From the NCBI GenBank assembly GCA_026874595.1, contig CM049313.1, forward strand, positions 64,918,159 to 64,982,158: a DNA stretch of 64,000 nt. Direction: 5' to 3'. This document shows, piece by piece, positions 1 through 64,000 of this stretch. Positions within the stretch are counted from its first letter, which is position 1, and each line of letters starts with the position of its first letter. The notes below the pieces were generated by a model. That model worked only from the letters and a program-made list of their open reading frames with translations, made no database searches and was not told the origin of the DNA. Origin of the DNA: Sipunculus nudus. Its lineage: Eukaryota; Annelida; Sipuncula; Golfingiida; Sipunculidae. Made by a program: the position numbers and the translations under genes.

Positions 1-2561
<2,561 letters not shown>

Positions 2562-39284: not shown

Positions 39285-39297
39285 GTGCCGCTTTCAC

Positions 39298-39760
39298 CTG
39301 TTTGTGTGTGATCCTGTCTTGCAGCCACACGATCTTTGAAAATTTCCTTTTTGGAATTCTTTTGGTAGTTCCATCTTCCTGGCTATGGGAGGAGAGCCGT
39401 GCATGCCCTTCTTGAGAGCGTCATAAAAAGCGCGGAGGTCGGGGCTCGGGCTGCGTGAACGGTCATCTGCCTCAGGCGAACGAGCGTCCTTTTTAGAGAG
39501 TCGGCCATCTTGTCGCCTCAAATCTGGCGCTGATCCCCCATACGAACCTGGCGGCACCGACAAAAGTGACCGCGGGGATGGACTTCTCCCGCGGTCAGAT
39601 AGATCAACAGATGATCCGTTCTTTGAACATGGTGAAAATCCTCTTGAGGGTCTATAATCAGCCGATCTGGGTCTGCTGGAATCGCTATATGCGTTCAAAT
39701 GATTTGGAGTCCCTGACTTTTGCCTTGCATTGCTCTTATGTGAGCCAATACTTGTGTCAA
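39298..39760 (-). CDS. Orphan coding exon, Ser/Arg/Pro-rich, unknown gene
   Basis: Open minus-strand frame with GC-rich, codon-like composition unlike its AT-rich surroundings. A consensus donor AACAG|GTGAAA is at 39297; the likely acceptor is ATCCATATAG, giving 463 nt in phase 2-2. It encodes a disordered basic-acidic stretch with RGRSPSPRSLLSVPPGSYGG and RSRSPSPDLRAFYDALKKGM, ending near KMELPKEFQKGNFQRSCGC. The SPSP motifs are typical phosphorylation-rich cytoplasmic or nuclear linkers. No family is recognised and no partner exon was found. It could belong to a gene extending across the SORD 3' region, or be a retained fragment. Confidence 0.5.
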
Positions 39761-41114
39761 CTATATGGATATCGGGGCATGCCATTGCAAAAGCCACGCT
39801 CACCTTGTGTCACTCTTGGAAAATGAGTCGATTAAATATTGTTTTTCTCAGCTTTCACTCTTTTGTCACCTAGTATATATGCCCGGTGTGATCTATTGCA
39901 AGCTCGGGGCACTGGTTAACAAGACGCCTGCAAACGTGATGGTTTCAGTCCTGTGTAACTCACACTTCTAGCGGCATTCTTACCGCACACGTAGCTCAAT
40001 CCATTGTTCACTTTCATATAACAGCCAGTCTTAAGAATTGGCTTGGTCTTATATCTGATTGGTATCAGTATAATTTGTTGCACAGATGATAAATACTGCT
40101 AGCTGTGATATATCATATGTGGTCGCAACTGCCCGGGTCGTAGGCTCGTCTGAGTGGTTACTACTAAAGTACATATACCTCATACCAGTTTTTACACGAC
40201 GTACCCATTAAACTCGACTTACGGCTTACGAGCACACCTGCGGGCGTGTCATTTTTTGTGGTTTACCTATATATGTCAATAGAAAATATACGCCACTTAT
40301 AATGTACTTAGCAAGTTATTTGCTCAAGGTATATAACATGTTGCAACTGGATCATACCCTAAGTCACTGTGTTGTATTTATACGTGTGTGTATTTATGAA
40401 TTTAAGATACATGACGTGGTACAGACGGAGTGCCCGTACATTACTAATCTATATTTCCACGGGGCTATATTAATTGTATTTGAAACATGCCTTTTTTTAA
40501 ATAAAACTAAAGGGTGCCAACATATGACCAGTGCATGAATTCAATTAACAACCAAAGGGATGCCAAAGTGTACAGCTTTCTACGTTCGATGAAAAAGTAC
40601 ACTTGGTAATGCAATTTTTGACCTCGGAAAAACAGAAGTATATCAAGTATTTTAAATTTAGTAAAACATCTGATATTTAGTGATTTATATTAATATCATA
40701 AAAGAATTCCGTTTTCTTATGCACCGCTGGCGTTTATTTTGAAACCCCCTCCCCGTATCAAAACTTGCTCTTTTTTATTTTCAGTGGATATTTAACGATC
40801 CTTAGCTCCAACCTCTCCGGCTTTTCTGAATAAAACCAAGAAATAAAATTATAAAGTTTCCTTTTGTTATGTTGTGTAATTACCTGTTTTGCCAAGCAAT
40901 TCTATTATTATGTAGTCAACTGATCATACGTTTATCGAATAACAAGATTAGGTACAAAAAATCGCCCGCCGGCTCTGATTGCTGATGACAGTGCCTGAGA
41001 AGCCAACCATTTTTTCTGTTACATATGTTCACTTAGACGGAGAATAAACCACTTCATATTTTGTCTATTATATACTGTTAGCTATATACTACTAAAATTG
41101 TCTAAAATAACTTG

Positions 41115-45657: not shown

Positions 45658-46494
45658 TCACCCAAAGGGAGGTCCGCCTCCAGGAGCTCCATTACCAAAA
45701 GGCCCACCTGGTCCTGGTCCGTTTCCGTTTGGGCTCGAAAAAGGAGGTCCATTTCCAAAAGGAGGTCCATTACCACCTGGGCCCGAAAAAGGAGGTCCAT
45801 TACCACCTGGGCCCGAAAAAGGAGGTCCATTACCACCTGGGCCCGAAAAAGGAGGTCCATTACCACCTGGACCCGAAAAAGGAGGTCCATTACCACCTGG
45901 GCCCGAAAAAGGAGGTCCATTACCCCCTGGGCTCGAAAAAGGAGGTCCATTACCACCTGGTCCCGCAAAAGGAGGCCCATTACCACCTGGTCCGTTGCCA
46001 CCTGGTGCCGGGAAAGTAGGTCCTTTGCCACCTGGGCCCGCAAAAGGAGGTCCATTGCCACCTGGTCCCGCAAAAGGAGGTCCATTACCACCTGGTCCCG
46101 CAAAAGGAGGTCCATTGCCACCTGGTCCCGCAAAAGGAGGTCCGTTTCCATTTGGTCCCGGAAAAGGAGGTCCCGAACCAAATGGTTCTTCATCTGCCTC
46201 TTCATTTTCCAAAACGAAGCCTCCTTCGGGTATGTCCCAGTTCCCTGGAAGGTTTCCGGGAATCTCTGGCTGATTGGTCTCTTCCGGCTCCGGCATCGTG
46301 TCAATGAGATAGTTGCACATGTAACGAACTTCGTAGTCGTGACAGCGGCATCCCATTTGCTGTCTGGCGTGATTACACCGGAAACCCCACGACCCCATTT
46401 CCACGTATTGTTCTGATGGGCAGTAGGCGGGGTTGGGCGCTGCTGTTTTTACATTATGCTCTGTGCACAGAGGCTGTTCTCCGCCACAAGCAAC
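45658..46494 (-). CDS. Secreted protein gene, exon 7 (WxxW-like end, acidic linker, GPPF repeats, stop)
   Basis: A terminal coding exon of 837 nt with acceptor TTATACAG. It starts VACGGEQPLC, runs through SEQYVEMGSWGFRCNHARQQ and CHDYEVRYMC (the conserved end of WxxW domains), then a Glu/Pro-rich linker, then about 13 copies of PGGNGPPFAG or PGGNGPPFSG, ending GGGPPFG and TGA. The low-complexity, aromatic-spaced tail suggests a self-associating or mineral-matrix segment (inference). Confidence 0.87.
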   Translation of the reverse strand, partial: VACGGEQPLCTEHNVKTAAPNPAYCPSEQYVEMGSWGFRCNHARQQMGCRCHDYEVRYMCNYLIDTMPEPEETNQPEIPGNLPGNWDIPEGGFVLENEEADEEPFGSGPPFPGPNGNGPPFAGPGGNGPPFAGPGGNGPPFAGPGGNGPPFAGPGGKGPTFPAPGGNGPGGNGPPFAGPGGNGPPFSSPGGNGPPFSGPGGNGPPFSGPGGNGPPFSGPGGNGPPFSGPGGNGPPFSGPGGNGPPFGNGPPFSSPNGNGPGPGGPFGNGAPGGGPPFG

Positions 46495-49400
46495 CTGTAT
46501 AATTACACGAAGAAGTGATTACGGTAATAATACAATGTAACGGTATTTACGGCGGTTCTGTCTGCTAAGGTGGTACAATTTCAACACAGAAATGTGACAA
46601 TGTAGTTTACCGTTAATCTATAATAGATTATTACACCTTCGCCAGATTGTGAGGAATCTCGTTAACTTTTGGTTACTTAGTTATCTGATTTGTCTGTTAG
46701 TGTCTTTACTAGTACACTATAAACTGTGTTAGATGTAAAACGGTGGACGGCAGTTAATTCCCTTGGAACAAATCTTTAAATTTTGGAGAAAAACTACATT
46801 ACCATAATATGTTTATAATATAAATTTAAAAAATCTCTATCATTATGAGTGTCAAGAAAATCATTTATCTTATTTATACAAAGATTTATAAAAAAAGGAT
46901 CATTTATTCGGTGTACTAAGGTGTTGTGAAGAAACTATATATTTATGTGCTTAAGATATTATTAAACGGTCATTTATATAGTTTTTTAAGGTTTGTTGTG
47001 CTTGGTGCATAAATGACCTTGGGGGCGGGACCATTATGTAATAAATAGGGCTGTTTAGTATGATAAGTATGTTTTCCAGCCAGCAAGCTGTATTTACATG
47101 TGTAGCGGGGACACAAGGTCAAAGGTTAAACTGGACCAGACCAGTACTGTCTATGCTGTTATAGAGAGTTCAGACAATGTGTAAAGCATATGACCTTGAA
47201 GTGGCTGTAACATCATGAGTGTAGTCAGTACTTGTCAACAATCCAACAGAGAAAGAAGGGTCCATTTTAGTGGAACGTTATAATAACATAGAGTTACCAG
47301 TAGCAGCAAGTACTCATGAGATCAAAATGAAATACTGAAACTTTTCACGTTTTCAAATACCTTGGGATATTAAGAACTCTATATAAGTGGGATTTTGTAT
47401 TTGTGTTTAAGAGACTGAGAACTGCCTGGTCGACATAAAACAAAAAAAGCATAAGGATCACATGTAATAAACGACCTGCATGGCAAGCCTTAAGAATTCA
47501 GTGAACAATCAAATTGACCGCAAATCTATTGATATAAGAACAGAAGTGTGATGCGCCTGTAAACTAAAAAATAACTGTTCGTGTGTGTGTTGGACCTATA
47601 GAAGAGACAAAACCAGAAGGAAGCCATGAATGAATCATCAAGGACTGTGTGGTACAATTAACTATAATATATGCATTGCTTGAACACTTACAAATCTACA
47701 GATCGTAGGTAGAAAGCTATTCTATCTTGAATAGTTGATAAATGGTATAGGTTATTTTGACCTCTGTGTCCCATATGAATTATGCTAGGTTAGGTATCAA
47801 TGTGGAATGAATTTTGTTATATAAATATTTGTTTTGTACGTTGGCTTTGTTTGTTGTTTGTAATCCTTTAATGCTTTGTAATCCTTTAATGTAAGACATC
47901 GTCGCCTTAAATAATGAATCAAAATCATTTTATATATACTCAAATCGTGACAATGAGATAGGGCATTCCTATTTCGGCCGAGGAATAAAACCTAACATTG
48001 GTAAAAGGGGCCCCTTTTGCACTAGAGCTGACTTTACCAAAGCTTGATTAGAACCTTGGCGGAGTTGTTGGTCTCTGACTGCTCTCAAATAATGACAAAT
48101 ATATGACAAATTACCTGCCCTTTCCACCACTCTTCACAGTCACACTGGTCACCTGGTGTCGGGGTATAGGTACTGCGGGCGGTCGACCAAAAACCTATTT
48201 AAAGAAACAATCTAATCACTTTTGGGTATTACTTTTAGAAAAATTGTACATATATCTTTGTAAAGAACAACACAAAGCTAGAATGAGAAAATTTCTTGTT
48301 CCTTTCTTTTGTCAATATGTGGCATTTCACATTTTTAGATTTTTTACTAGATCCTCGGCTGGGATTTGAACCCACGATCTCCCGTTTTTTTAGTTGCGCT
48401 TAACTTCTAGACCACAGAAGCTGCATGATGGATATTTCTGTATTGTTGGTACCCTTAAAGACAGATATGTCTGCGATGGAGATTAGCAGAAGTGACTGGT
48501 GAATATGTTCCAATCATGACCCCCTCAGTATCAATATTATTTTACACTGAAGCATTCAAACATGATAGTTGGTTTTATGCACGCTAGGGTTTCAATATTA
48601 AAATATATGCGAAAGGGAACTTATCAGGATAATTAAATGGTCGTGAATAAGCGCCCTATAAAAAACATATCTTGGGCATTACCCGTGCATGTAACGCCGA
48701 TAGAAATACGATATCAACGATATCAATATTTCATGTCACCTGTCAATGAACAATCAGAATCACAATTCGTTCGATATTTCCTTGGCTTCTTTATTGTTAA
48801 CAATTTGCTGATAAACCAAAAAAAGACTGTCTCGCTATTATTCTGTACGCAATGAAGCAACTCATAATCTTATATACCCTGCGTAGGTTTATGTACGGTG
48901 AAATTGCGAAAACCTTAATGAAACACTGAAAAAGGGAAATTCGAGAAAAAATCCGTATATACCGGTGCACATGCTGCTAGTCCGGGGTTAATGAAACACG
49001 TCAGGCCATTTGATGCTGATCAGGTGCGGCTTTAGAAGGGGCTCAATGTAAGCGACATTCGTCTTCGACACAAAAATTACTAGTAATGAACGTTTGAAAG
49101 TTGGAAAAAAATATATTGTTAGGGGCCAAAATATTTTTGCAACACAATATCTGTCAATGACAAATGCACTTGACATGGAAATATTGCTTTAACATTATTC
49201 AAAAACCATTACTTCGAAATCAACTAATAAAAGAGGCATTTGCAAAATAAACAAGTGATGTTGACTGTAGTCTTTGTTCGAGACTTGACAAAAGTCGACT
49301 CGGGTCAAGACGCGAGTCCATATTTCAAGGACTCGAGTTAATTAACCAAGGCTTGGACTCGACAGTCTTTGACATTGTAGATCAAGACTCGAGAAAAAAG

Positions 49401-52400
49401 GCTAGATTGCTCCTGAGGCTAGTAGAAGATAAACTTGGTCACCAAAGGTCTGAAGTTGAATTTGGAAAACATCCATAAAGATTACCAATGTAAACGTTTG
49501 ACAGAAATTTGCAAACACAATTAAATATGTACCAACGGACCTATTTGATTATTTTCTAGACTTGTCTATCCGGAATTACCTCCAGTGTGTCAATATTTTA
49601 TGGACCGCTAAGTATATGTGATTTAATTTTTTTTACTTTGACTTGGTTTCTTTCTGATTCAAGACTCTAAGAAGGTTGGACTTGAACAAAAACTTCAAGG
49701 ATTTACTAGCCATGTGGAATTACCGCCAGTATGACCATACTTTACGGACCTCTAAGTATATGTGATTAAAGTTTCTTTAAGAGTCGGACTCTAAGAAAGT
49801 TGGACTTGGAACTACACTTCAAGAATTTACTAGCTATGTGGAATTAACTCCAGTATGTCCATACTTTACAAAGCTCGAAGTATATGAGATTGAACAATAA
49901 AAAAATTAAGCGTAAACTAACATAAAAAATGGTTATCTCAATTTGATGTAAAAAAATACAAATTTCTACTTGGACTTGGTTTCTTAAACAGTCGGACTCG
50001 AAGAAGGTTGGACTTAGATTCGAACTTAAATGATTTGACTAGCCTCGACTCGGACTTGCACTCGGACTCTTTAAATGTGCACTCGACTACATCACTGACA
50101 TAAACAATGAAAACGTGGCTGGGTCTGCAATGTTTAATACTTCGTGGTCTCACCTGGCAATGCACAGCCAACTTCTTGGTAACAGTGATACACTGACGCT
50201 ATCGCCAGTTGGTTGAAGATTCCAAAGTTGTAACATGTCGGGCATTTTGCTGCGATCAAACCTACAAGGTAGATGCGATCTTCGGAGGCGACCAAAACAG
50301 GGGAGCCGTATACGAACGCTTCCTTCCCGGATGGAATGTTCCAGAACACACGAGAACAGATATGTCCGTGATAAGGATCCCACGAAGGCCTACATGAAGT
50401 GTGCTCCAGTACCTTGTGGGTGATGGTAACCTTCTCCGTGGGACCCGTCCCCATGACACTCATCGCCAGGCCGCAGTACTTGTAGAGGTACGTAGGCCCG
50501 TGTCCGGACAATCTCAGCATCCCGAAATCCGGAATTCGCTTGATCATCTTGAGGAGAATGTCAAGAAAACTTGGAGGAACAGAAGGTTTGGAAGAGCTGG
50601 AACTAGAGCTGGTGCTTTGAAACAATGTGCTCGACACGGTCAAGACCACAAGGTCGCAGACATCAGGATGACGAACTACTCTTTTAATAGATGCCGTCTT
50701 CTTTTCTATGAGGTCGCATCCTAACGTTTCAACCCTGTTGATGAGAAAAAGAAGAAAATCATTTCGTTATTTTATTGTAATATTTCGATATAATGACATT
50801 AAATATGAAGGATTTATGTGATATATTCTGTCCTAAATAATAAAGAACATGAGAAGAAATACACTGGACCACTTGTACAAATCAGATGTTCGTTCGACCA
50901 TCGAGTATGGAAATCTGATTTTATGAGCATAACTAACAGTAAAAAAACTCGAAAATGTCCAATGCCAAGCTGCTAAGCTAGTCACAGATGCACTTCGAGC
51001 AACCAGTTATGTAAACTTTCACCTGAACATGTCTGGCATACTTAAGAAAGCCGACGAACAAAATCAAAGTTATGTTTATCCTATAAGTTATTACATTGCC
51101 TATGCCTAGCTTTCATGTCACGATAAATGTGCTCGTCAGTCTCAAATGTTACTCCTATGAACCTAAGAAACACAAGTGAGATGCGCAAGTCTCGTGCAAG
51201 AACGGAGAAATACAAATCATTCATTTCATCTTGCACAGTTCTATGGAAATCATTAGACTAATCATTAAAACAAGCAGTTCTTTAAATGCTTTAAAATTTT
51301 CTGTGAATAGATACCTTTGCTTAGCATCCGATCCCACATTATATTACAGCTATAGAAAACGACAGCAGAATATTTAGATTTCAAGACTTAGATTCGTCAT
51401 AGCTGTCTTAAGGATCATTTGTACACACATGGTCTGTCTGAAAGTGACCGAAATCCACAATGTCGAATGGTTAAAACATTTGTTTTTTTTAATGTGTCCG
51501 AACTACGAAGTCGCACGACAAATGCAATGGAGTAATTACAAAACTTTAGCACTGATATCCTTACTTTATTCACGTCTAATTGGGACAGACGACAAACTTA
51601 TAAATTAATGACCGTCTTAATACATAGGTCATTGAATTTAAGCTTAACAGTTATCCAATGTATACTTAATCATGCATTCGCATATCTTTAATCAATAAGA
51701 CGCTTCTGTGCTGACCGGTAAACTGAGTAAATACAACTGAAGGATACCCGACTTATCATTAATATTTAGATTCGTTTGAACAGATACTGACAGTTTTCAG
51801 GTATTTTTGTAATTATTCATGATTTCATATAAGGTTAAGGTGATATAATATCTTAATTTCGTGAAACGTCTACCCAGGTAATATATAAATCATTGATCAA
51901 TGTTTTATTTGCATTACAAATGTATTAATCAGGCTTTGCTGAGTGTTCTTTCTATCTTATCCTGTATAATATTGATAGATACAGTATCACGCATAATCGA
52001 TAAAAGATTTTCTCGGTTTTCATATTTCAACATATCGATATTAAATGCTTTGCACCGTTTGCTTATTAGACAGAAAAAATTTAAAAATATTGTAATATAT
52101 TGTTATAACGGATTTATGTTATATATGTTATATGCACTATTCGCTTTAATGTTAGACTTGTAAAAAAGTATTTCTGTATTGTATGTTCGGAGAGTACTTA
52201 TAGTATTTAGCATTTAAGCGCAATTTGTAAAATAAAAAAAGGAATACATATGTTTAAACCAACCATTTTTGGTTTAACTTGTTCCTGAATACTCGTGCAA
52301 TTCAAACTGGGAATCGGAGCACCAAACGAATAACCAAACTTTGGCAATACACGCCCATACACTAATACAGGGTTTACGCTTTTACAGACATCGCTGTACA

Positions 52401-55129
52401 TAGAAGTACGAATTAAGTTATTGTTACTTAAAAGTGCTACTTTTAAGTAATTTTACATCACTTGTCCCATGTCTTAATTATTGACGCCATCTGGTATTCA
52501 TTGATTGAAACAATGGAGCTACACATGACGACATATCAGAATTATTCAGGAGACATTGATCCAATCATGTCCCTCGTTTACGGTCCGTCTACGCGGTGGG
52601 GAAACTTTTAGGTCAACCGTCTGGCGACGGGAGACGTAATTTAGAATCTGACCGATCAAATAAAGGCTTGTAACCTTGTTGGTTTCCTGTACATGTGTTC
52701 TTGTTGATAATACTTGTGAAGAGTTTTGTCAGTTCTGTCAACTGTTTAGTATGGTAATTATGGACTTGATTGGCCGTTATGGTTTTGGTCCCATCACATG
52801 TGCGTCTGTTTTAACTCCATGATGCAGCAGGCCAGGAGACCACCTGCATGAAGCAAGGTCTCTACTCAACTGAGTTTGCGACCGGGATCCCGTTAGAAGG
52901 TCGACATTGGATATGAGTGTGATTCTATAATCTGAGACACTAGCAGATATGGAAAGAGAATTTACCATTCAATCTAGGTTGTAGAAATATATACATTTGC
53001 ATGTCCTTTCGTATCTACATAACTGCAAGTTTTACATCAAGTGGGCAGGACCTTCTACCAAGCTTTAACAATGAATACCCGCACTCGCGCACGCATGGGT
53101 GCACTCACACACGTACACTCACACACACACATTTTCTTGCAAAATAAGTTGTTTTTTTTTTATTTTTATTTATCTTAAATCGAGGGGCCAAAACTTAGAA
53201 GCTTTAAAACTTGTGGAGCTCACTGCAAAGATTGATTATCACCCAGTGTGGATATGTAGTCTCGGACTACAGTTCTCATAATTTTTGTTGTGTTAATTGT
53301 GGCATATTTAGAGCTGTAAAACCTAAGGACTGGCAGTATAAATGTTTCGGCTTATTAATTAAAACATTTTAAATTTGGACCAACCTTTTGGTCATTGGGT
53401 GATTTGAAATTTAATCTGCTGTCTTGTTTTGTATTATCTAGGGAGAGATACGGGTATTTGACTCTGTTTGGGGCTGCAACGTTAGCCCAAAGCTTACTCA
53501 TTACACTTACTCGTATCTGTCCGTGTCGTCATCAACCACGCACGTGCTCAGCGTAACAAGGGTGGCCTTTCCCATCAAAATCCCCATACACTTGTGCACC
53601 CCGTCGACCTTGACCTTGGCAATGAGGCACTTAATATCCAGCCCGTCGGGGTTGAGCAATTTGTTGTACAATTCATTCTTGACATTCTGGCAAGTGTCGG
53701 CTGTATGCCCTGTCGTGTAATATACCCAGAAATTATTTTCAATTAAAATTTGCTTTCATTTATTATTTTATAGCATAGTGCTGATCATTAGAAATAAAAG
53801 TGATTTAAACTTACGTACAACTTATAAATTCCCAAATAGCGGGAAAGTAAGAGAAAAATTACACAATAAAGACACGAAACAGAACAGATGTTTTTCATAA
53901 CAGGGCCCTGTTTAGAGACATTTTTTTTCAAAGGAAAAGGTTGCTTCCTACAGACTTCTCATATATAGTTTTGATAAGTATATACATAACTGATGAAAAA
54001 AAAATAGTTTAATGTTTTTTTTTTACGTTTGACGACCGTACATAATAATAGGTCAATAATAATAGTGATGATAATAATAATAATAATTATTATCATCATC
54101 ATCCTTATCATCAACATCTTTTCGGTATATATTTATATTGGGTGGCTACTAAGGAAAACGTTTTGTTCATTAAAACATAGATAATATACTTATATATATA
54201 ATATGACACATATAATATAATATAATATAATATAATAATATATAATATAATAATATATAATAGAATATAATAGAATATAATATAATATATCGGTGAAAAT
54301 CATAACTAGTATAGATCAGCGTCGTTAATCCTTTTTTGTAAAATGTGGCGGCGGCACTGCGTCTCCTCCGTCTGTTACCACACATTGGTGCTGGCGCCAT
54401 CTGAGGAGAAGTCCATCTATTTACTTAACGACCCGCCATAAAGGAGGGCATCATATCTCTCAGACTCGCAGACAGTCCACGTTCAGACGGCAGTTTTCTA
54501 AGCTGGTCACATAAATACACACAAGACTTATTGACTAAATCATCTTTCCATGGAATGAGCCTTGTCGGTACTTTTTCTAAACGACTATCCGCCCTATGTA
54601 TTGTATGTATTCCACCCAGGCCAAGGCCAGATGATTGAATCATGCATACTGATATATTCACATGATATTGCAGCACATGTTCAGAATAAGGCTGTCTGTT
54701 GAATATAAGAAATTATACTTGTGTAGTTACACCAAGCCATTCTCTATATCAACGCAGAAAAAAATGAGTTTATCGTTGCCACCGGCATCCCTCTTTGTCT
54801 TACTGACAATCTTGATGCCAGGTTTCATAAACGAATTATGTAAATTTTATAAATGCCTTTCCGTTCGTAGTTGATACGTTTTATCGCATTTTTATTTAAT
54901 GACTGCTAATCGCATTTACATTTAAATTAGTCGAAGCAATTATAAATGCTTGTACATGTATTTGAACCCATACATCGCCTGACGACACCTCGGTCGAGAG
55001 ACCACATCAAAACACCGATCACTTTGTACGGGTCCCGATTGTTTGTCGCCCTTAATACAAAACTCGCTTACACGACCACCTCGCAAATGCGACCCCTTTA
55101 TCGAGGTCCAGATGCTGGTCGTAATTACG

Positions 55130-55190
<61 letters not shown>

Positions 55191-55794
55191 TACAAAGTCA
55201 GGTTACAAACTTTTTATATGAGTGATCGATGATTTTAGTTTTAATACTTATTGCCATAAAAGAGTTCTTTTTGAAAAGTGGTCAACAGCACATTGAAATT
55301 TTCACTGCAATGACCGCGCCCTCATCCTCAAATATGAGTTGTATAAAGACTGCTGTTTGTTGAACGAGATATCTGCTTTAATGGGTGCTATAATTGTTAT
55401 TATTGTTAGTCTTCGGAACACGCTCTAGCATTTATGGTTCATCTTATATAAAATGAATTATTAGATGAATTGGAAGATGTTCTAACATATTTTAACAGCC
55501 TGCAAACTTAAGATCGCAACCTGTGACAACTGGAGATCTGTTATAAGGTAAGGACTTTGGACTTGACCTACCGGAAATTAAAAGTAGCGATTAAGAAACT
55601 TTGTTTTACTGAAGATTATTGATAATCTTTTGATAAATTCCATTATTTACAAATGGATTAAAACTGATGAAGTGTTCACAGTCTGCATATTTGACAATGA
55701 TATATATATGGGTGTGAGCTCACAAAGTCGGTACTCGCGCTATGTCCAGCATAATGTACGCAGAGCATTCGTGAACATACGATATTTATGTGTC

Positions 55795-55843
<49 letters not shown>

Positions 55844-58800
55844 TTTATTTAAACAAACACAAAGAAATTTCGCCTTTGATGCACCTCTCTCAGCTATTTT
55901 AAACTGCGAATTACTGCCTCCAGCGTTGATTTATGTGCATATTGATGTAAGTCATATGCTGCCCGCATCCGGAGTTGAGGAAAATAAAAGGATAAATCCC
56001 AATGGGAAAACTGTTTCTCTAATTAAGAGGAAAAGACGAATTGCGTCCCCAAAAAAGGAGTCATCGTTACAGCACAGCTATTCTTTTTCTTTCTCTTTGG
56101 GAATCAGGCTGCACAATTTTGTACTTCTATGTGGTCTTCACTTTTGTGTAATGTATGCGGTAATTTGTGTAGTTTGCAAATATATGGCTCTTGGTACTGG
56201 AAAATTTAGATATAAAACCTATAAAATATTAAATTACATCCATATTTTAAAAGGACTTACTTGGACAATTCACCTGGCGATTGTCACATTTCCTGACCTG
56301 GAAATTACTTCCGGTACAGTTACTTCCGCCCTGGCATGTTCTTTTTCTCATAGAGGAACCGACTCCAGCACAGGTGACGGTGCACGGGCTCCAGTCTCCG
56401 TATTCAGACCATGTCCCTGCAGCTGTACATGGTGTAAACTCAGGTCATGTAATGTATTAGATTATAAAATATATAACATAATATGTTAAACACTATGAGG
56501 AAATATAACTGTGTGTGTACATATATAAATAAATATATATAATATTACAAGTAAATAATAATACAATAATACAAGTTCAGTGTTTATAAATAACATATGC
56601 ACATACATGCCTTTCCGTAAACAAAAAAGAATACCAGTGACAATATAGAACGTTTCTCATCATATAAGCCTTTTTTAACCCCCGAAGACGCGGCTTTGAC
56701 CTTTTTCGGCGAACTATTATCTGGGCTAATATGGCAGCGCCCTTTATACCTCCAAGGTTGGAATACGAATTCGGCCTGGGAGTTCCAAGTAGGCAAGAGC
56801 ATGTAAAGCAGCGCCATGTTTTTTATTTGCAAAACTGTGCTCCGTCTGATTTGGCGCCTTGTGGCGCTGCTGGGCGTGTTTTTACTATGATCGTCGGATA
56901 TATTACCCCAAACATGCTTTCAAAATGCTAATACAAACGAATGGAACAACATATGCTTTGCTGAATCGGTTAATTTTATTTATTTTTTGGGGGGTAGGGG
57001 GAGGGGTGGAGTATTCTGATAAAAGTGCCAGATATTATCTTTATTTAATATATGTCAGAAACCAGAATGGGCCTCTTTATTAAAATTATTCAACCTAGTG
57101 AGAGAAGGGCATAATTCGCCAAGGGGGAGGTTGGTGGTGGGGGGGGGGGGGGGGTTAGCACCGGGTTTCACAGGTGATTTACACCTTCTGCCGTGTGTAA
57201 TGTGTAATGAAAATTATGTCACTCATTGTTGGTTAAATCAACCTATATCTCTAGAAGAGGTAACACTTGTAGTAATAACTGAAACGCAAAAAGTCGAAAC
57301 GTATGGATAATATTCCAAAGATTAATCAAATGTAGAAACGTCATATCTTTTTTTTTCAAATTAATTACGTTTTGCTTGAATAATGGAGTAATACCATATG
57401 ACTGGAAAGAGTCCGTCAAAGTCCCAGTGCCTAAAGCAAGTACAGACTGCATGGAGCCTTTAAATCATACAGGGACTAGTCTGTTGTCATGTATCGGGGA
57501 AGGTCTTGTGTTAGGTAATAGAGAGGAGAACTGTGAATTATTGTGATGCTTTCTCAATGATCGCAGATGAACAAAATGGTTTTCGAAGTGGTCGGTCTTG
57601 TATTGATCATATAATTGTATTAAGTAGTATGATAAGAAATCAGTTAGCAAACGGCGAGGAAACGTTTGTTGCCATGGCGGACATGGAAAAGGCTTTCGAC
57701 TGGATAAATAGAAATTTACTTTTATATCGTTTAATAGAGTGCAATATTGATGGCAAGATCTATAATGCTTATAAAGTTATTTATACGGACACAAAAACCT
57801 ATGATCGTATAAATAAATATATGAAAACTAAATGGTTCGGTGTGTCTAGTTGAGTAAGACAAGGAGACCCTCTGTCATCTACATTGATCAATATATTTGT
57901 TAATTCCTTGGTAGATCACCTCAAATTGTTGGATATTGGCATATAAAACAATAGCGAAACCGCGTGCATGTTATTATACGCGGAGGACATAGTACTCTTT
58001 GCTGATTCAGAAGGAGATTTATAGACCTTAATTTCTCCTTTGTAATCACTGGTACAAACATAACAAAGTAAAAAAAGTAATTCATTTTAGAAACCGAAAG
58101 CAAGGATTAACACAATTTAAATTCATGCTTTATTGTCAGGAATTAGGGATAGTTAGTAATTATAAGTATATGGGACTTTATTTAAATGAGCATATGGCTT
58201 ATTATGAGAGTTCAGGAAAAAAACTGATCGAATCCTGTCCGAGGGCTTTAGGCGCAAAAATATCAAAATTCAAGAAAATAAAAATATAACGTATAGTATT
58301 TTTAAAAGTTGTACCATTCAGATGTAGCTCCGGTCATCCATCGACCATGCTTCTGAAATTAGGGGATTCGCCAAAGCGCCTGCATGTGACAGAATTCAGC
58401 AGAGAGCAAACAGATTTTTTCTGGGGTAACACAAATTTTGTACTATTCCGGCTTAATATGGTGAGACGGGATGGTTTGATTGAAGGTGCAGACGACTTGA
58501 TTATAGGATTTCGATTATTATCAAAACACACAAAACTTTGGTCTTCGGAGATTGATCAATTCCTTTGATAATATGAACCTACTTAATCTTTACACTGATG
58601 TTAAACCTTGTCCATTAACACAAGCAAAGGAGAATATAAAAGAACATTTTGACAGTAATTGGTTGATTAATTGTGACAATATGCCAAAGTTACGAACGTA
58701 TGTGAAGTTAAAATCTAAAGTGAGTACTGAAGGATACTTAACTATAATTTAACCACCCTTGGCCCAACTATAGAAGAATATTACCTTTAAAAACAGAAAC

Positions 58801-61205
58801 TGGACTTTTTAAGAACATAAGGGATTCAGAGACAGGGCGGTACAGAAAATGAAAATAGAAGAAAGACTATGTGAACTTTGTGAAAGTAATAGAGTAGAGG
58901 ATGAGGTTCATTTTATCTGTCAATACTCAGAAAGGAGGAAAGAGTTGTATGGCGCTATAAACGACAGGAATCAAGAATTTATTTGCCTGGATGATGAAGA
59001 TTAATTCATATACCTAATTGTAAATGAATTTGAAAGAATGGCTGGTTATATAAGTGACATATGGAACATTTGCACCAACACATTGTTTAGATAAAGAAGA
59101 CATGTTCGGTCTAATATGATAGTTTTCTTTTATATATGGTATTTCAACCTGCATTTTTTAACTTGTTAATTAATTTGTGACATATAAGTCCAGGAAGGCT
59201 GGGTGCACATTAGAATATGTATGTATATAGATAGGATGTTAAAAATATGATGTTCAATGCAAGCATCACTAGCGGGAAAGTTCGGTCAGCTTTTATGTCA
59301 TCCCGTAAAACACCCTTTAAAGAGTGTTCTGCAATCAGAACAAGACAAATTATCCCAGGAATCACACTTTGGTGAGCTTATTCCCTGGGCCACAAAGTCA
59401 CGTTGGACGAGCCCCCTTTTTATTTGGAAAGACAAATTGCTCAAGAAAATATCGGGCCGATCCGTGATTCGAACCCATGTCGGTGGCGCACATGTCCGGC
59501 GTTCGAACCGCTTCGCTAGAAAAGTAAGCTTCACAAGCGAGAAAGTTCGGTCCGCTTTTATGTCACCCCGTAACACAGGTCACCAAGGACGTTTTTGGTC
59601 TGAATTAGGTGCCCACTTGTGGAAACAGCGCGCACCATTGTAGCGTATTGCACCGTTTTTTATAAATCGTTTGGGTAATCTACCAAATTTAGTACTACTT
59701 TACTTGTGTTATGAACAACCTTAATACTTACCCAGTTCTATCTTAATGCTGTTAAAGGTGTTTTTTTCTTATATCTGAGGTGTATCAAATAAAAATAATC
59801 TTGAATCATTATAAAAATAAGCCAAAGTGCGCCGATCCCACGATGCACAGACAGGTTGTCTGTCTTGGTTATAACCACGTGTTTATAACAGGTTTGTGGC
59901 TGTCAAAAAGGCCGATCGAACCTCAAACACGTCCCTCAAAGACATCTAGCGACAGTCATAAGAACCAGAGATTTGCATATGAGAAAATATTTTAATGCTT
60001 CATATGCTGACACTAAGAAAAGCTGTAGAGCGCAATCCACCTCCTTTACTCAGCGGTCACATGATTTTTCTGTTTGTCAACGTGGGCGCGTACACCATGT
60101 TTATCACGTCAGAGTCGTCAGTCACAGAGGCGTTATAAGAATTTTTTTTTTAGCAGGAAATATTACGGATCGTTAATGTGTTCCTAAAGTAAGCAAGAAA
60201 TCATATATACTATATACAAAAAAGGCGGGTGATTATAGCTGACTTTTAATCAGGAACGGGTTTGATAGGATAATGATTTGAATGAAAATTGTGACATGAC
60301 ATAATCAACCAGCGAGCATCAAGAATTTTTGGTGAAGGATGGGTTAATCGGGGGGGGGGGGGGGGGGCTGAGGGGTGATTTCTCACAGTAAGGGGTGGTT
60401 TACCCCTCTGACCTCCACCCCTGTCAACGTCCTGGACAAATATGCAAAGGGAAAATTGACATAATATGGTCGAATAATTATTCAAGGGCACTGACACTAT
60501 TATTACATCTCTTATGTGCTATATCCGCAGCTGAAATTCTAATCAAGGATTATTTTCATTGTGATGGGCTTCACATTTATCAACATAACCTAGACAGTAA
60601 TTTTTTGTCCCGGCGCTGTGTTAATTACCCAGACAACATGTGACTGAAAAAGTAAAACTAACCTTCGTATCCAGTGATCGTTTCGAAAATTATGAGAGTT
60701 GTCAGTACAATGGCATTACAACCTAGTTTCTGCAATAAAAAAGAGAGAACACAACATTAATTTGATATATCTGCGACAAGAATAATAATTAAATTATATG
60801 GTAGACATGTTAAATTTGCGTGAAATCTTGTGCGTAATTGAATGAGTGAACCCTCGAGAATATTAATGATAAACAATAAAAAACAATAAACATTTGTTTG
60901 AAACGAGTGTCCTCTTGATTTGATATGATATTATGCTGTGATATGCTGTTATAGGAAAACAACGAATAACATATATAGCTAATTGTAGGATGGTTACATG
61001 GTCAAACAAATGTATAAGTTCTTATTAATTATAGAATGCACATATTGTATGATTTACGCCATAAATTGCGTACATTCAATGACACCAGCCATAGAATATA
61101 CAAATAGACTTACTACACGCGTGACTTTGTTCTTCCTGTAATAAAGCGAATTGCGAGTTCAGTGCTGAAATATTGTTTGACATTACTCACATCTATCTTT
61201 TGCAT
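45658..61205 (-). CDS. Secreted TSP1 / inactive trypsin-like / WxxW-like protein with GPPF-repeat tail, complete
   Basis: Seven exons in transcript order: 61205-61191, 60729-60663, 56422-56261, 53709-53511, 50734-50154, 48194-48115, 46494-45658. Phases agree at every junction and the sum, 1941 nt, is one open frame of 646 residues plus stop. Layout: signal peptide 1-25; TSP type-1 repeat about 30-80; trypsin-like (S1) domain about 85-340 lacking catalytic His and Ser; Cys-rich segment 355-420 ending CHDYEVRYMC like WxxW domains of CILP and gel-forming mucins; an acidic linker; and Gly-Pro-Pro-Phe decamers to the C-terminus. I infer an extracellular matrix, mucus or shell-matrix protein rather than an enzyme. 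CILP also pairs WxxW with TSP1, but in reverse order and without a protease fold. I do not recognise a named gene. The introns are full of repeats. Confidence 0.85.
45690..46195 (-). repeat. Coding 30-bp minisatellite
   Basis: About 13 near-identical 30-bp units encode the GPPF decamers of exon 7. Units fall into two runs: those ending Phe-Ala-Gly (46020-46180, plus one near 45965) and those ending Phe-Ser-Gly (45750-45960). This suggests local unequal exchange. Irregular units are at 45970-46020 and at both ends. Confidence 0.9.
46495..48114. other. Secreted-protein gene intron 6
   Basis: AT-rich, no repeat array or exon recognised. Confidence 0.5.
48115..48194 (-). CDS. Secreted protein gene, exon 6 (linker)
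   Basis: An 80-nt exon between TTTAAATAG and GGGCAG|GTAATT. It encodes FWSTARSTYTPTPGDQCDCE then EWWKGQ, a Thr/Ser/Pro linker leading into the Cys-rich domain. Phase and open frame fit both neighbours exactly. Confidence 0.75.
48355..48420 (-). mobile_element. tRNA-derived SINE head
   Basis: Minus strand: a box A-like segment TGGTCTAGAAGTTAAGC and box B GGTTCAAATCC, spaced as in a tRNA gene. No pairing acceptor stem is evident, so this is a SINE or tRNA pseudogene rather than a functional tRNA. Confidence 0.55.
49270..50095 (+). repeat. Diverged tandem repeat rich in GACTCG/GGACTTG
   Basis: TGTGGAATTA-type boundaries at about 49571, 49718 and 49841 set off three units of roughly 125-250 bp sharing CCAGTATG, CTAAGTATATG and GAAGGTTGGACTT. 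Flanked by shorter GACTCGAG-like motifs. Confidence 0.6.
50154..50734 (-). CDS. Secreted protein gene, exon 5 (rest of S1 domain)
   Basis: A 581-nt exon between CATCAACAG and CCAG|GTGAGA. RVVRHPDVCDLVVLTV matches the HP...DIALL strand and keeps the catalytic Asp. A Ser run (SSSSSSSKPSVPPSF) is a likely surface loop. Later come HICSRVFW, then EAFVYGSPVLV where active proteases have GDSGGPLV (Ser missing), and YLVGLIAAKC before the final helix. This makes it a catalytically dead serine-protease homologue. Confidence 0.85.
50735..53510. other. Secreted-protein gene intron 4
   Basis: Contains an antisense LINE remnant (50840-51640), then AT-rich DNA without recognised features. Confidence 0.55.
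50840..51640 (+). pseudogene. Decayed LINE C-terminal fragment
   Basis: Reading across frames gives YIRPLVQIRCSFDHRVWKSD-like text, then LENVQCQAAKLVTDAL, NLRNTSEMRKS and ARTEKYKSFISSCTVLWKSL, phrases typical of the 3' end of jockey/CR1-type LINE polyproteins. Many stops and frameshifts. No complete domain remains. Confidence 0.55.
53511..53709 (-). CDS. Secreted protein gene, exon 4 (N-terminal half of S1 domain)
   Basis: A 199-nt exon with donor GA|GTAAGT. It encodes the first strands of a trypsin-like barrel, CLIAKVKVDGVHKCMGILMG then LVTLSTCVVDD. The family's VTAAHC is VTLSTC here, so the catalytic His is Thr. A second AG nine bases into the exon could give an isoform three residues shorter. 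Confidence 0.8.
53710..56260. other. Secreted-protein gene intron 3
   Basis: Contains ATA/ATC microsatellites (54055-54110), a TATAA-type array (54205-54290), (TA)n at 55132-55186 and 55798-55836, and an open minus-strand stretch at 54425-54676 with no recognised family. Confidence 0.55.
56261..56422 (-). CDS. Secreted protein gene, exon 3 (thrombospondin type-1 repeat)
   Basis: A 162-nt phase 1-1 exon, the usual way TSP1 modules are encoded. It contains TWSEYGDWSPCTVTC, then RKRTCQGG, ending CDNRQVNCP: the WSxW-like tryptophans, Arg ladder and six cysteines of a TSP1 fold. Donor A|GTAAGT. Confidence 0.9.
57240..59090 (+). pseudogene. Decayed non-LTR retrotransposon reverse transcriptase
   Basis: Pieces in order: CLNNGVIPYDWKESVKVPVP, then DEQNGFRSGRSCIDHIIVLS, FVAMADMEKAFDW (RT motif with catalytic Asp), VRQGDPLSS, LLYAEDIVLFADSE (the YADD box altered to YAED), a thumb-like region, and a C-terminal Cys/His cluster CELCESNRVEDEVHFICQYS. 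Stops at 57851, 57942 and 58021, plus frameshifts, make it non-functional. Inserted antisense in intron 2 of the secreted-protein gene. The class is LINE (jockey/CR1/L2 group); exact clade undetermined. Confidence 0.85.
59259..59578 (+). repeat. Pair of 55-bp direct repeats
   Basis: 59259-59313 and 59524-59578 share AAAGTTCGGTC, GCTTTTATGTCA and CCCGTAA with about 80% identity, too long and diverged for a target-site duplication. Confidence 0.6.
59466..59519 (-). mobile_element. tRNA-like SINE head
   Basis: Minus strand shows box A-like TAGCGAAGCGG and box B GGGTTCGAATC with about 33 nt between them. Flanked by the direct repeats at 59259-59313 and 59524-59578. No acceptor stem seen. Confidence 0.45.
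60663..60729 (-). CDS. Secreted protein gene, exon 2 (signal peptide core)
   Basis: A 67-nt exon between TTATTGCAG and GAAG|GTTAGT. It encodes KLGCNAIVLTTLIIFETITG, a basic start, hydrophobic core and small-residue end typical of a signal peptide, with cleavage likely near Thr-Gly-Tyr-Glu. It ends in phase 1. Confidence 0.75.
60730..61190. other. Secreted-protein gene intron 1
   Basis: 461-bp AT-rich intron; nothing else seen. Confidence 0.55.
61191..61205 (-). CDS. Secreted protein gene, coding exon 1 (start)
   Basis: Encodes MQKID, then donor GAT|GTGAGT in phase 0. This start gives a proper signal peptide with the next exon. A purine is at -3. The ATG at 61219 is out of frame and opens a short uORF instead. 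Confidence 0.7.
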
Positions 61206-61219
61206 TTCTTTAAACACAT
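61193..61219 (-). other. Short uORF overlapping the start codon
   Basis: An 8-codon reading frame (MCLKKCKR) starts 14 nt before the main ATG and ends after it, so a ribosome using it would bypass the main start. It matters only if transcription starts upstream of it, which the TATA position implies. Confidence 0.45.
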
Positions 61220-61264
61220 GATGGATTCAGAGAGAGTATCAACAAAATGTAAATACGTCATGTG

Positions 61265-61274
61265 AATAAATATA
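61265..61274 (-). promoter_or_regulatory. Candidate TATA box of the secreted-protein gene
   Basis: TATATTTATT on the minus strand, 60 bp upstream of the start codon, giving an expected transcription start near 61240. Motif and spacing only. Confidence 0.4.
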
Positions 61275-61469
61275 CTTCATTAAACAAGTGTCTTCATATT
61301 TCCATACGCCATGGAAATTACACATTCGACGTTTTAGAATATATGATGTATATACATTTTATACATAATAATTCTATAGAATGTACTGAGCCAAACATTA
61401 ACACATTCTAGAGTTTTCCATGTTATTCCTATACGACATGCATATTCGGATAATTAGACGAACTATTCT

Positions 61470-61940
61470 GTATATAAAAGGTGACCATTCACCTACCTTT
61501 TGAAAAAAAAATTATGTGAATTCTGGCTTCTTCTGTGTATATATTAATGATCAAAGGGTAAATCTCGTTATGAAAAGTTCCAATAAGGCCTTCCTAAACA
61601 TTTTATGAACTTGTTTATCAACAACATGTTTATAAACACAGCAATGTTGACAATAGGGAAAAAAACATGTAACTAAGGTAGTAGGTTGCATATATGGGCA
61701 GGTCGAAAGGTCACTTTTGGCAAAACGCCATTTGCAAACTCTGGCTTATTTGACTTGATGAATTTGTTTTATATTGGCGGGCCCCTACATATTATAAACA
61801 GTTTGATATAAACCAAGCAAGCGGCCTGTGTGCGATGATATCCACGTTTATCTGTCTATTTTTTTTATTAAAGCTCCAAGGGGTTACCTTTAGTTTATAA
61901 AGGTCAGATAGGTGATTGGGCCCCTTTAAGTGTATGCTGT
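61470..61940 (+). repeat. Dispersed repeat family R1, intact copy
   Basis: Complete in family order, including AAGGTCACTTTTGGCAAAAC, which is the undisrupted version of the site entered by the 28405-33394 element. Confidence 0.75.
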
Positions 61941-62558
61941 GTTCGATGGTAGATCTAAAGATGGTTCAGACTCAATATTCGATCAAGATCTACCGACGCA
62001 TGCACTCTGCTTGGAATAAAAAATAAGAAAATGAAAGATGAAATAGATGCTCCTCTATAATCCTCGTATCATACCGATTGTATATTTTACCAATTCCCTG
62101 ATCTACCGATAAGCGCCTACAGCGTTGTTGGGTCGACTGAGGTTTTCAACTTGTAACACCCCAGTCCCCCAAAGGGACTGTAAATAAAATCAAATAAAAA
62201 TGCAAATTTCTTTTAATACTTAAAACTGCTCGTAAGTTACCTGTCCCAGTCCTGACCTACACTAGCTAGCATGTTAATTTAATTCTTCCGTTGAAGTTAA
62301 TCTTGTTGGTTAGATGCTGCATTATATAGTAGCTGGTGGAACGTCTAAAATTTGTAATTGTTTATGTACATTTAATTCTTCTTTTTATTTAAAAAAATAA
62401 AATTGATAATTAAAATTTTGCCTGTTTTTCCTGTTGATATAATAGAATCATGTTACATATAAATATATAATAAAATATTTTTTAATATATTATCAATATA
62501 AATATGAATGATGACAGATCGGCCTGTGCCAAGTTGAAATCTTATTCACAGAAATTCG

Positions 62559-62851
62559 GGATCGGATATTGGGTCTGACCCATCTTAAGTTCGGTTATTG
62601 GGTCTGACCCATCTTAAGTTCGGTTATTGGGTCTGACCCATCTTCAGTTCGGTTATTGGGTCTGACCCATCTTAAAGTTCGGTTATTGGGTCTGACCCAT
62701 CTTAAGTTCGGTTATTTGGTCTGACCCATCTTATGTTCGGTTATTGGGTCTAACCCATATTAAGTTCGGTTATTGGGTCTGACCCATCTTAAGTTCGGTT
62801 ATTGGGTCTGACCCATCTTAAGTTCGGTTATTGGGTCAGACGCATCTTAAG
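62559..62851 (+). repeat. 29-bp tandem array, ten units
   Basis: Unit GTTCGGTTATTGGGTCTGAC plus CCATCTTAA. Each unit contains the inverted repeat TGGGTC-T-GACCCA. Units are nearly identical; the last is most diverged. No spacers, so not a CRISPR array. Confidence 0.95.
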
Positions 62852-63378
62852 ATTGTTAGATTGGAAGATGGCGTGCAACATATGAATATATATATATATA
62901 TATTAGTTCGATTTTTGAATAAAAAAAAGCCAATGATCGATTAATAACCGTTACATTAATACCTTCTATATAACCATGAAATCTGATGTACAGAATTACA
63001 CCTAAATATTGACCAAGAAAACTGATTTGTACATCAAACATCACGCGTAAAGGTCAAGGTCACGGCCAGGTGACTTTTTGGCTGCTCGATGTTCAGTTTA
63101 AATGTGGTTCGCTGCTTCCGGTCTCTCTTATATATCTCTGGTAATATTAGAGTATTTTTCTCTTGGCGACATGACTTCTTTGCGTGTATACATAACCGTT
63201 GGTGATCGATTATGAAAAAAAACAACCATTTTAAAAATTATTATCAAAATTATATATTAGGGCTGTGTATCGAACACTAATTTCGTATGGTAATATATAG
63301 ATATATTGCGATATGTGATAACGTACTGCCATACTTATTGCGATATTTTCATTGTATATTATCTTTATAGGAAAAAAG

Positions 63379-63436
<58 letters not shown>

Positions 63437-63859
63437 TTTTCAATATTATTATAATCAATCATTTTTGGTCTTTGTAAATGTAATGGGACCATTACAGTTT
63501 ATGCAGATCAGGTTTATTCAAACAAGTTAACACGAAATATGACAATACTTTACTTTCTCATGTTCTTACAAGTACTTATTTGTTATTGATAGGACTGAAA
63601 AAAACATTTAAATCAAAGCTTACTTCAGGCCTTTTACACACATGCACCACATTATTTCGATGTCTACATTTTTAACATAAACATTATTTTTACTACAAAA
63701 ATTATTTTTAGGCACGTTTAACGAAATATCTAAAAATATCGATATTTGAATACTTATCGCGATACGCATTATGCGAATCACCGTACCACGAAATACCGAT
63801 ATGCTAGTATCGATATTAACGCCCACTCCTAATATATATGTCATGGTTCAAATGGCAAT

Positions 63860-63978
63860 CTGGTACAATTGGCAATTGTACCAGTACAGATCGCAATTGT
63901 GATTGTACTGGTACAAATGATAACTGCCAACTGTTCTGGTACAACTGGAATCTTAACCGGTACAATTGGCAATTGTAC
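63860..63978. repeat. Cluster of exact GGTACAATTG palindromes
   Basis: 63860-63884 is a perfect 12+1+12 palindrome around GTACAATTGGCAATTGTAC, and the same core recurs as 9+1+9 at 63960-63978. Between them CTGGTACAA variants are scattered. Confidence 0.85.
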
Positions 63979-64000
63979 TAAGGGGTCATAATGAATGTCT

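Follow-up and report, generated by a model that had tools for sequence, protein, structure and literature searches.

Read from its sequence, a seven-exon gene on the minus strand of a Sipunculus nudus chromosome is a degenerate member of an S1-WxxW family, in which His57, the GDSG motif, the activation stretch and the second tryptophan of the WxxW motif have been lost, while at least one other member of the family, the C1 gene, is apparently intact. We propose, with about equal confidence and doubt, that the product of this degenerate member is now secreted and non-catalytic, a matrix or mucus protein whose tail is elastomer-like. The gene lies in a stretch of 64,000 nucleotides (the window; C8:64918159-64982158), and genome comparisons were made with the 1.43-Gb assembly. 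The encoded protein runs from a hydrophobic N-terminus through a TSP1 domain (residues 33-75 in Pfam), an S1-like region (82-341), a WxxW-like region (342-431) and a linker to a C-terminal repeat tail.

The gene had been proposed in a preliminary description as seven exons forming one open frame of 1941 nt with matching phases. This model, from 61205 down to 45658, was rebuilt exactly and confirmed; it encodes 646 amino acids and its sole stop is terminal (Table 1). Entry phases are 0, 0, 1, 1, 2, 1 and 0 for exons 1 to 7, and all six introns are GT-AG.

Table 1. Features of the gene model, in window coordinates.
Feature	Position	Strand	Description
Exon 1	61205-61191	(-)	Start codon, MQKID; phase 0 end at GTGAGT
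Exon 2	60729-60663	(-)	Hydrophobic stretch AIVLTTLIIF, residues 11-20; putative signal peptide (hydropathy only)
Exon 3	56422-56261	(-)	One TSP1 domain; phase 1-1 exon
Exon 4	53709-53511	(-)	S1-like fold, first part; entry phase 1, exit phase 2
Exon 5	50734-50154	(-)	Remainder of S1-like fold; Ser-rich insert; phase 2 entry
Exon 6	48194-48115	(-)	WxxW first half: WSTA in WxxW position; EEWW
Exon 7	46494-45658	(-)	WxxW second half, linker, repeat tail and stop
Exon 7, WxxW second half	46494-46306	(-)	CGG..CHDYEVRYMC; Pfam Mucin2_WxxW match
Exon 7, acidic proline-containing linker	46305-46180	(-)	Read from sequence
Exon 7, GPPF[A/S]GPGGN repeat tail	46179-45661	(-)	173 aa
Stop codon	45660-45658	(-)	ATTAAA 197 nt downstream, about 45461

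Ranked against all GT sites of the window, four of the six donors fall in the best 0.5% and the other two in the best 4%. Among the acceptors, that of exon 2 is in the top 1.4% of the window, followed by those of exon 5 (top 5%), exon 6 (12%) and exon 3 (23%); those of exons 4 and 7 are ordinary, 40% of the window's AGs scoring as well. Relatives back the boundaries of exons 4 to 7. Within 60730-64000, exon 1, which has no support from any relative, is the only place where an ATG leads through an open phase-0 stretch of no more than 150 nt to a GTRAGT donor. The weakest points of the model are exon 1 and the junction between exons 3 and 4. Exon 6 is short and its acceptor is not obvious; its counterpart in L031, which reads GIWSEWFDFS..ESWW, agrees with it in entry phase and in the residue of entry (GT ATA TGG versus GT TTT TGG). 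An alternative exon 6 starting at 48172, joined to a GTATTA donor of exon 5, is also open (1932 nt) and was rejected because L031 favours the 48194 start and the GTGAGA donor is the better of the two for exon 5. A chance chain of open reading frames was rejected as the origin of the model, since the boundaries of exons 4 to 7 are common to relatives and the donors are strong.

Several other elements are found in and around the gene. Intron 2 contains a reverse-transcriptase fragment (RVT_1, 57515-57850 (+); 29.7 bits, cut-off 29.6), intron 5 a 124-bp tandem pair (49663-49891), and a 29-bp unit is present in 10 copies at 62562-62851, about 1.4 kb upstream of exon 1. Searches for tRNAs and Rfam families gave no match. 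As regards a tandem family, no paralogue of the gene occurs within the 64-kb window.

Across the genome, an S1-WxxW locus was defined as an S1 place with a WxxW match downstream on the same strand within 10 kb. Nine of 33 S1 places (32 from the genome search plus this gene) are paired in this way and correspond to eight loci including the present one, against a chance expectation of 0.004. The other 24 have no WxxW match downstream within 10 kb; one has a WxxW upstream. Besides this gene, the loci lie on C8 at about 69.26, 72.94, 73.00 and 73.04 Mb, that is, four on the window's own chromosome, on C12 (13.99 Mb), on C16 (7.66 Mb) and on C1 (107.68 Mb). Some members are weak and were counted by position: the WxxW matches at C16:7658053 (E 6.9), C8:69262745 (0.45), C8:73005064 (0.16) and C8:72935125 (0.02), and the S1 matches at C8:69266260 (E 0.38) and C8:73043434 (E 0.09). 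Because the pairing recurs at eight loci, the S1-WxxW core is not a one-off chimera; the earlier impression of an unfamiliar, isolated combination is not borne out, the C1 member having the catalytic residues as well as a canonical WxxW.

The C1 gene provides the closest structural comparison. Its first exon read (L052), CGGSLITRRHVLTAKHC, carries His57 and contains APRGAYPW, no preceding exon having been found; the L050 exon holds Asp102 in FDIAILKL and Ser195 in CHGDSGTAM; the L053 exon, AWTRWYNADSPGGGGDFE, has a canonical WxxW (WTRW..GDFE); and the L041 exon extends from VPCGG to CPYEVK and then stops. The entry phases of these four exons (1, 2, 1 and 0) are those of exons 4 to 7, with boundaries at corresponding residues, and exon 5 has the same boundary and phase 2 entry as both L050 and L051. 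The first of these C1 exons can be left only through a GC donor. Once joined, the C1 protein matches Pfam Trypsin at 3.2e-45 (profile 7-220 of 220) and WxxW at 6.9e-11 (1-88 of 88); one residue is possibly missing before the second half of its WxxW, where the joined protein was ended at HQ and the DNA allows HQP before GTGCGT. Among the relatives, His57 was read in C1 only, and Asp102 and Ser195 in C1 and C12. Over S1 and WxxW together, this protein and that of C1 align in 332 columns with 22% identity (E 6e-11, for one subject only). In a global alignment of the S1 parts, z is 5.0 and none of 500 shuffles scores as high; for the C-terminal half, 8 of 1000 do. Exon 5 DNA matches only itself in the genome, and a six-frame protein search with this exon found no genome relative better than E 0.455. 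The match at that value, L026:1501-1698 (C12:76423228), is exon-like, reads VTVTRTVIDHVTC..LWVFWKIPGNK and is perhaps a distant dead-S1 relative.

In motif order, in the introns shared with the C1 gene, in the spacing of Cys122 and Cys138 (16, as for C42-C58) and in the Asp102 place, kept as Asp175 in CDLVVLTV, the S1-like region resembles S1 proteases and their homologues. It differs from them in having Thr137 at the His57 place, according to a gapless alignment between Cys122 and Cys138, and GKEAFVYGSP instead of the GDSG of Ser195, the serine place being Glu286 or Tyr290 depending on the alignment. It also has a Ser-rich insert, and the N-terminal activation segment (IVGG..PW) is absent from exon 4. 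Since the catalytic His and Ser are missing, the protein cannot be an S1 peptidase.

The inactive trypsin fold suggested in the preliminary description is supported mainly through the C1 relative, but Pfam Trypsin (PF00089) stays below its cut-off of 20.6, with 15.9, 17.4 and 14.8 bits on three pieces (profile 16-80). These piece matches cover the N-terminal part only, and no Trypsin match is listed for the whole protein. A comparison by hhalign with three S1 proteases gave a probability of 6.8% and an E of 0.0053 over 58 columns. With a three-sequence S1 profile, the N-terminal part outscores all 809 scored shuffles (1000 made), while 226 of 862 shuffles do as well as the C-terminal half, which therefore does not rise above the background; with a four-sequence profile (L050, L051, trypsin and chymotrypsin), exon 5 is equalled by 10 of 838 scored shuffles and the C-terminal half by 7 of 875. 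By profile alone, the C-terminal half of S1 could not be detected. A sequence search of the PDB returned, besides noise, Factor D only (E 0.38-0.58) for the S1 part, and noise only for WxxW. By sequence search alone a dead S1 is plausible, if unproven; it is the architecture shared with the C1 gene, more than any single score, that argues for an S1-derived origin of the region.

For the WxxW-like end, Mucin2_WxxW (PF13330; cut-off 22.4) gives 26 and 24.7 bits on pieces, and the match on the exon-7 piece, above the cut-off, spans profile 33-88 of 88, but the whole protein scores 19.6, below it, and the motif itself is lost, Ala replacing the second Trp in WSTA; relatives have WSEW (L031) and WTRW (L053). 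Elsewhere in the genome, the WxxW piece matches at 19 places with E values of up to 10. Further WxxW copies include L024, identical with L040 (C9:20322407), which has an in-frame stop in the domain, and copies at C16:27.36-27.43 Mb. CILP combines TSP1 and WxxW, and also has an Ig domain. The order TSP1 before WxxW is common to CILP-type proteins and the present one; here, however, an S1-derived domain lies between the two, a repeat tail follows and the second Trp is missing. As to an Ig domain in this protein, Pfam yields at E up to 10 nothing but a weak CATSPERB_Ig-like match (E 0.3).

Beyond the WxxW region the protein departs from its relatives. The frame of this gene runs on for 218 residues after the last WxxW cysteine, whereas 18 of 19 other WxxW loci reach a stop 2-10 residues after it; the exception is L022, an EGF-linked WxxW with 14 residues to the stop, perhaps read into an intron. 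These stops, read from DNA, look genuine, and among the loci with readable ends only L041 and L044 are S1-paired. Each of the pairs L023/L039 and L024/L040 denotes a single place and entered the count once; L024 has its in-frame stop, and L049, which has no such motif, was omitted. The C-terminal extension looks specific to this gene. Its repeat tail contains 39% Gly and 30% Pro, with GPGGN occurring 10 times and GPPF 15 times. Among residues considered for cross-linking, the tail has a single Lys and lacks Tyr, Gln and Cys, which counts against the matrix reading. When 150 of 451 candidate matches for the tail in the genome were scored, they yielded, besides the tail itself (263 bits), 39 matches of 21-41% identity, the best at 63 bits, which are read as compositional.

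The repeat, as previously claimed, is real, and the model frame is the best of six for synonymous excess. That the repeat can be read without stops in several frames of either strand is in itself no evidence. Of 26 differences among 12 repeat units, 15 are synonymous when read in the model frame, where 29% would be expected; a plus-strand frame follows closely with 13 of 26 (28% expected). Because the copies share history and that plus-strand frame is so close, the p-value of 0.002 is indicative only.

Repeats of this kind invite comparison with silks. A silk-like class has been delimited by a threshold of 25% Gly in an 80-residue window, according to the accessible part of PMC4944945; here the maximum is 41%, and 133 of 541 such windows reach the threshold. 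With the silk-like structural proteins of that text, the present one has in common a Gly-rich low-complexity region within a putatively secreted multidomain protein, but its signal peptide is putative, it has no silk homology and its repeat is a Pro-rich decapeptide. The GPGGX repeats of flagelliform silk are described, in the portion available of PMC6168590, as amorphous or beta-spiral and elastic, together with an elastin-like threshold for proline and glycine. The GPGGN repeats are like those of the flagelliform spidroin without homology; here, in contrast, GPPF[A/S] alternates with GPGGN and forms a short tail on a globular protein. A literature search for GPGGX in molluscs found no paper.

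The reading as a secreted matrix or mucus protein is favoured over its rivals because the catalytic His and Ser are lost and the tail is GPGGX-like, with Gly above the threshold. The putative signal peptide would send the protein out of the cell. TSP1 domains and serine-protease homologues generally serve as binding modules, and the TSP1 and dead S1 fold may do so here. The WxxW half-domain, in which the cysteines are seen, could act as a disulphide-rich cap. With P and G every few residues, the tail would form no regular sheets or helices and would be disordered, elastomer- or gel-forming; its mechanics in a matrix or mucus would follow the GPGGX rule of flagelliform silk. More tentatively, and with doubt outweighing confidence, an S1-WxxW protease gene may have become in this lineage a structural, elastomer-like protein, in which the former enzyme is the folded anchor of a silk-like tail, the catalytic site having been lost and GPPF/GPGGN added past the usual WxxW stop. 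The shell or byssus role raised at the outset is a guess.

The byssal TSP-1/vWFA protein of Pinctada fucata (PMC4597212, in the part accessible) shares with this protein TSP1, a signal peptide (putative here) and a Gly-rich repeat part; it has 24 TSP1 domains, vWFA and GGSS repeats, and the domains listed there include neither S1 nor WxxW. WxxW is not mentioned in the accessible sections of a giant-clam shell proteome paper (PMC8217771), which counts against the matrix reading, and none of the terms sought occurs in a snail mucus paper (PMC8158898). Among the matches listed, an S1-WxxW protein is unnamed in titles and abstract openings, which is no proof of its being unpublished.

Insect serine-protease homologues act as decoys or cofactors. 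A soluble regulator of this type, in which the dead S1 would be a decoy or cofactor for active proteases or inhibitors and the Pro/Gly tail a flexible stalk or surface-binding segment, is conceivable here, although we consider it unlikely. The presence of an apparently intact paralogue in the same genome makes a decoy of the live enzyme possible, and Asp102 is kept; a decoy, however, would be expected to keep its surface, whereas in this protein the activation region and active-site motif have diverged and the WxxW motif is lost.

The TSP1 domain itself is upheld by the profile search: TSP_1 (PF00090; 1.2e-9; cut-off 21.6 bits) scores 38.7 bits on the exon-3 piece and 34 on the whole protein, and the domain has six cysteines (Cys 41, 45, 57, 63, 73 and 80). 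Its connection to the S1-like region is the point at which two genes could have been merged, a TSP1 gene (exons 1-3) and a separate S1-WxxW-tail gene (exons 4-7). Only phase and a GTAAGT donor link exon 3 to exon 4, whose acceptor is ordinary; in C1, the roughly 3 kb that precede the S1 exon (L052) contain no TSP1 match with E < 1; and TSP1 exons are very common in this genome, with at least 150 matches (150 of 1749 candidates scored). Exon 4 and its C1 counterpart nevertheless both enter in phase 1 and therefore require an upstream exon ending in phase 1, and exon 3 ends in that phase across an intron of 2.55 kb, so that we hold a merger of two genes to be improbable. Both the TSP1 that precedes the S1-WxxW core and the tail that follows it could be peculiar to this gene.

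Least probable of all, and to our minds very doubtful, is a decaying gene or pseudogene whose S1 and WxxW parts are eroding and whose open frame is a remnant: hallmark residues are indeed lost from both parts and exon 5 has no close paralogue, but the 1941 nt contain no internal stop, the donors are of consensus type and the repeat has its synonymous excess, even if the copies depend on one another and a plus-strand frame has almost as large an excess.

Other features of the window and assembly are recorded here. The same translated ORF occurs in opposite orientations at 1730-2083 (+) of the window and at L009:4656-5024 (-), with ORFs named by eye as Polinton/Maverick-like between them, in L009-L011; one end of such an element apparently lies within the left end of the window. 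About 26-48 kb beyond the right end, VWA-like ORFs (by eye) and several TSP1 exons at L014:6176-6868, L015 and L016:7097-7735 (+) are perhaps pieces of one VWA/TSP1 gene. Within the window, an exon-like ORF at 26798-27262 (+) matches ADH_zinc_N at 30.3 bits (cut-off 31.8), and a 171-aa Ser/Pro/Arg-rich open frame at 39297-39809 (-), in a GC-richer stretch, has no Pfam match at E up to 1. Long ORFs of 391-537 aa with Trypsin matches lie on contigs C61-C90 and C117; many of the scores recur identically on different contigs, as though the assembly included several strains of a single bacterium. The idea of a chemosynthetic symbiont behind these bacterial-looking contigs was dropped, as the assembly holds no RuBisCO large chain.

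If the conversion of an S1-WxxW protease gene proposed above is true, this gene would let the descent of a non-catalytic structural protein from an extracellular protease family be traced in a single genome. The apparently intact relative, together with the introns that it shares with this gene, would then represent the state before that conversion.
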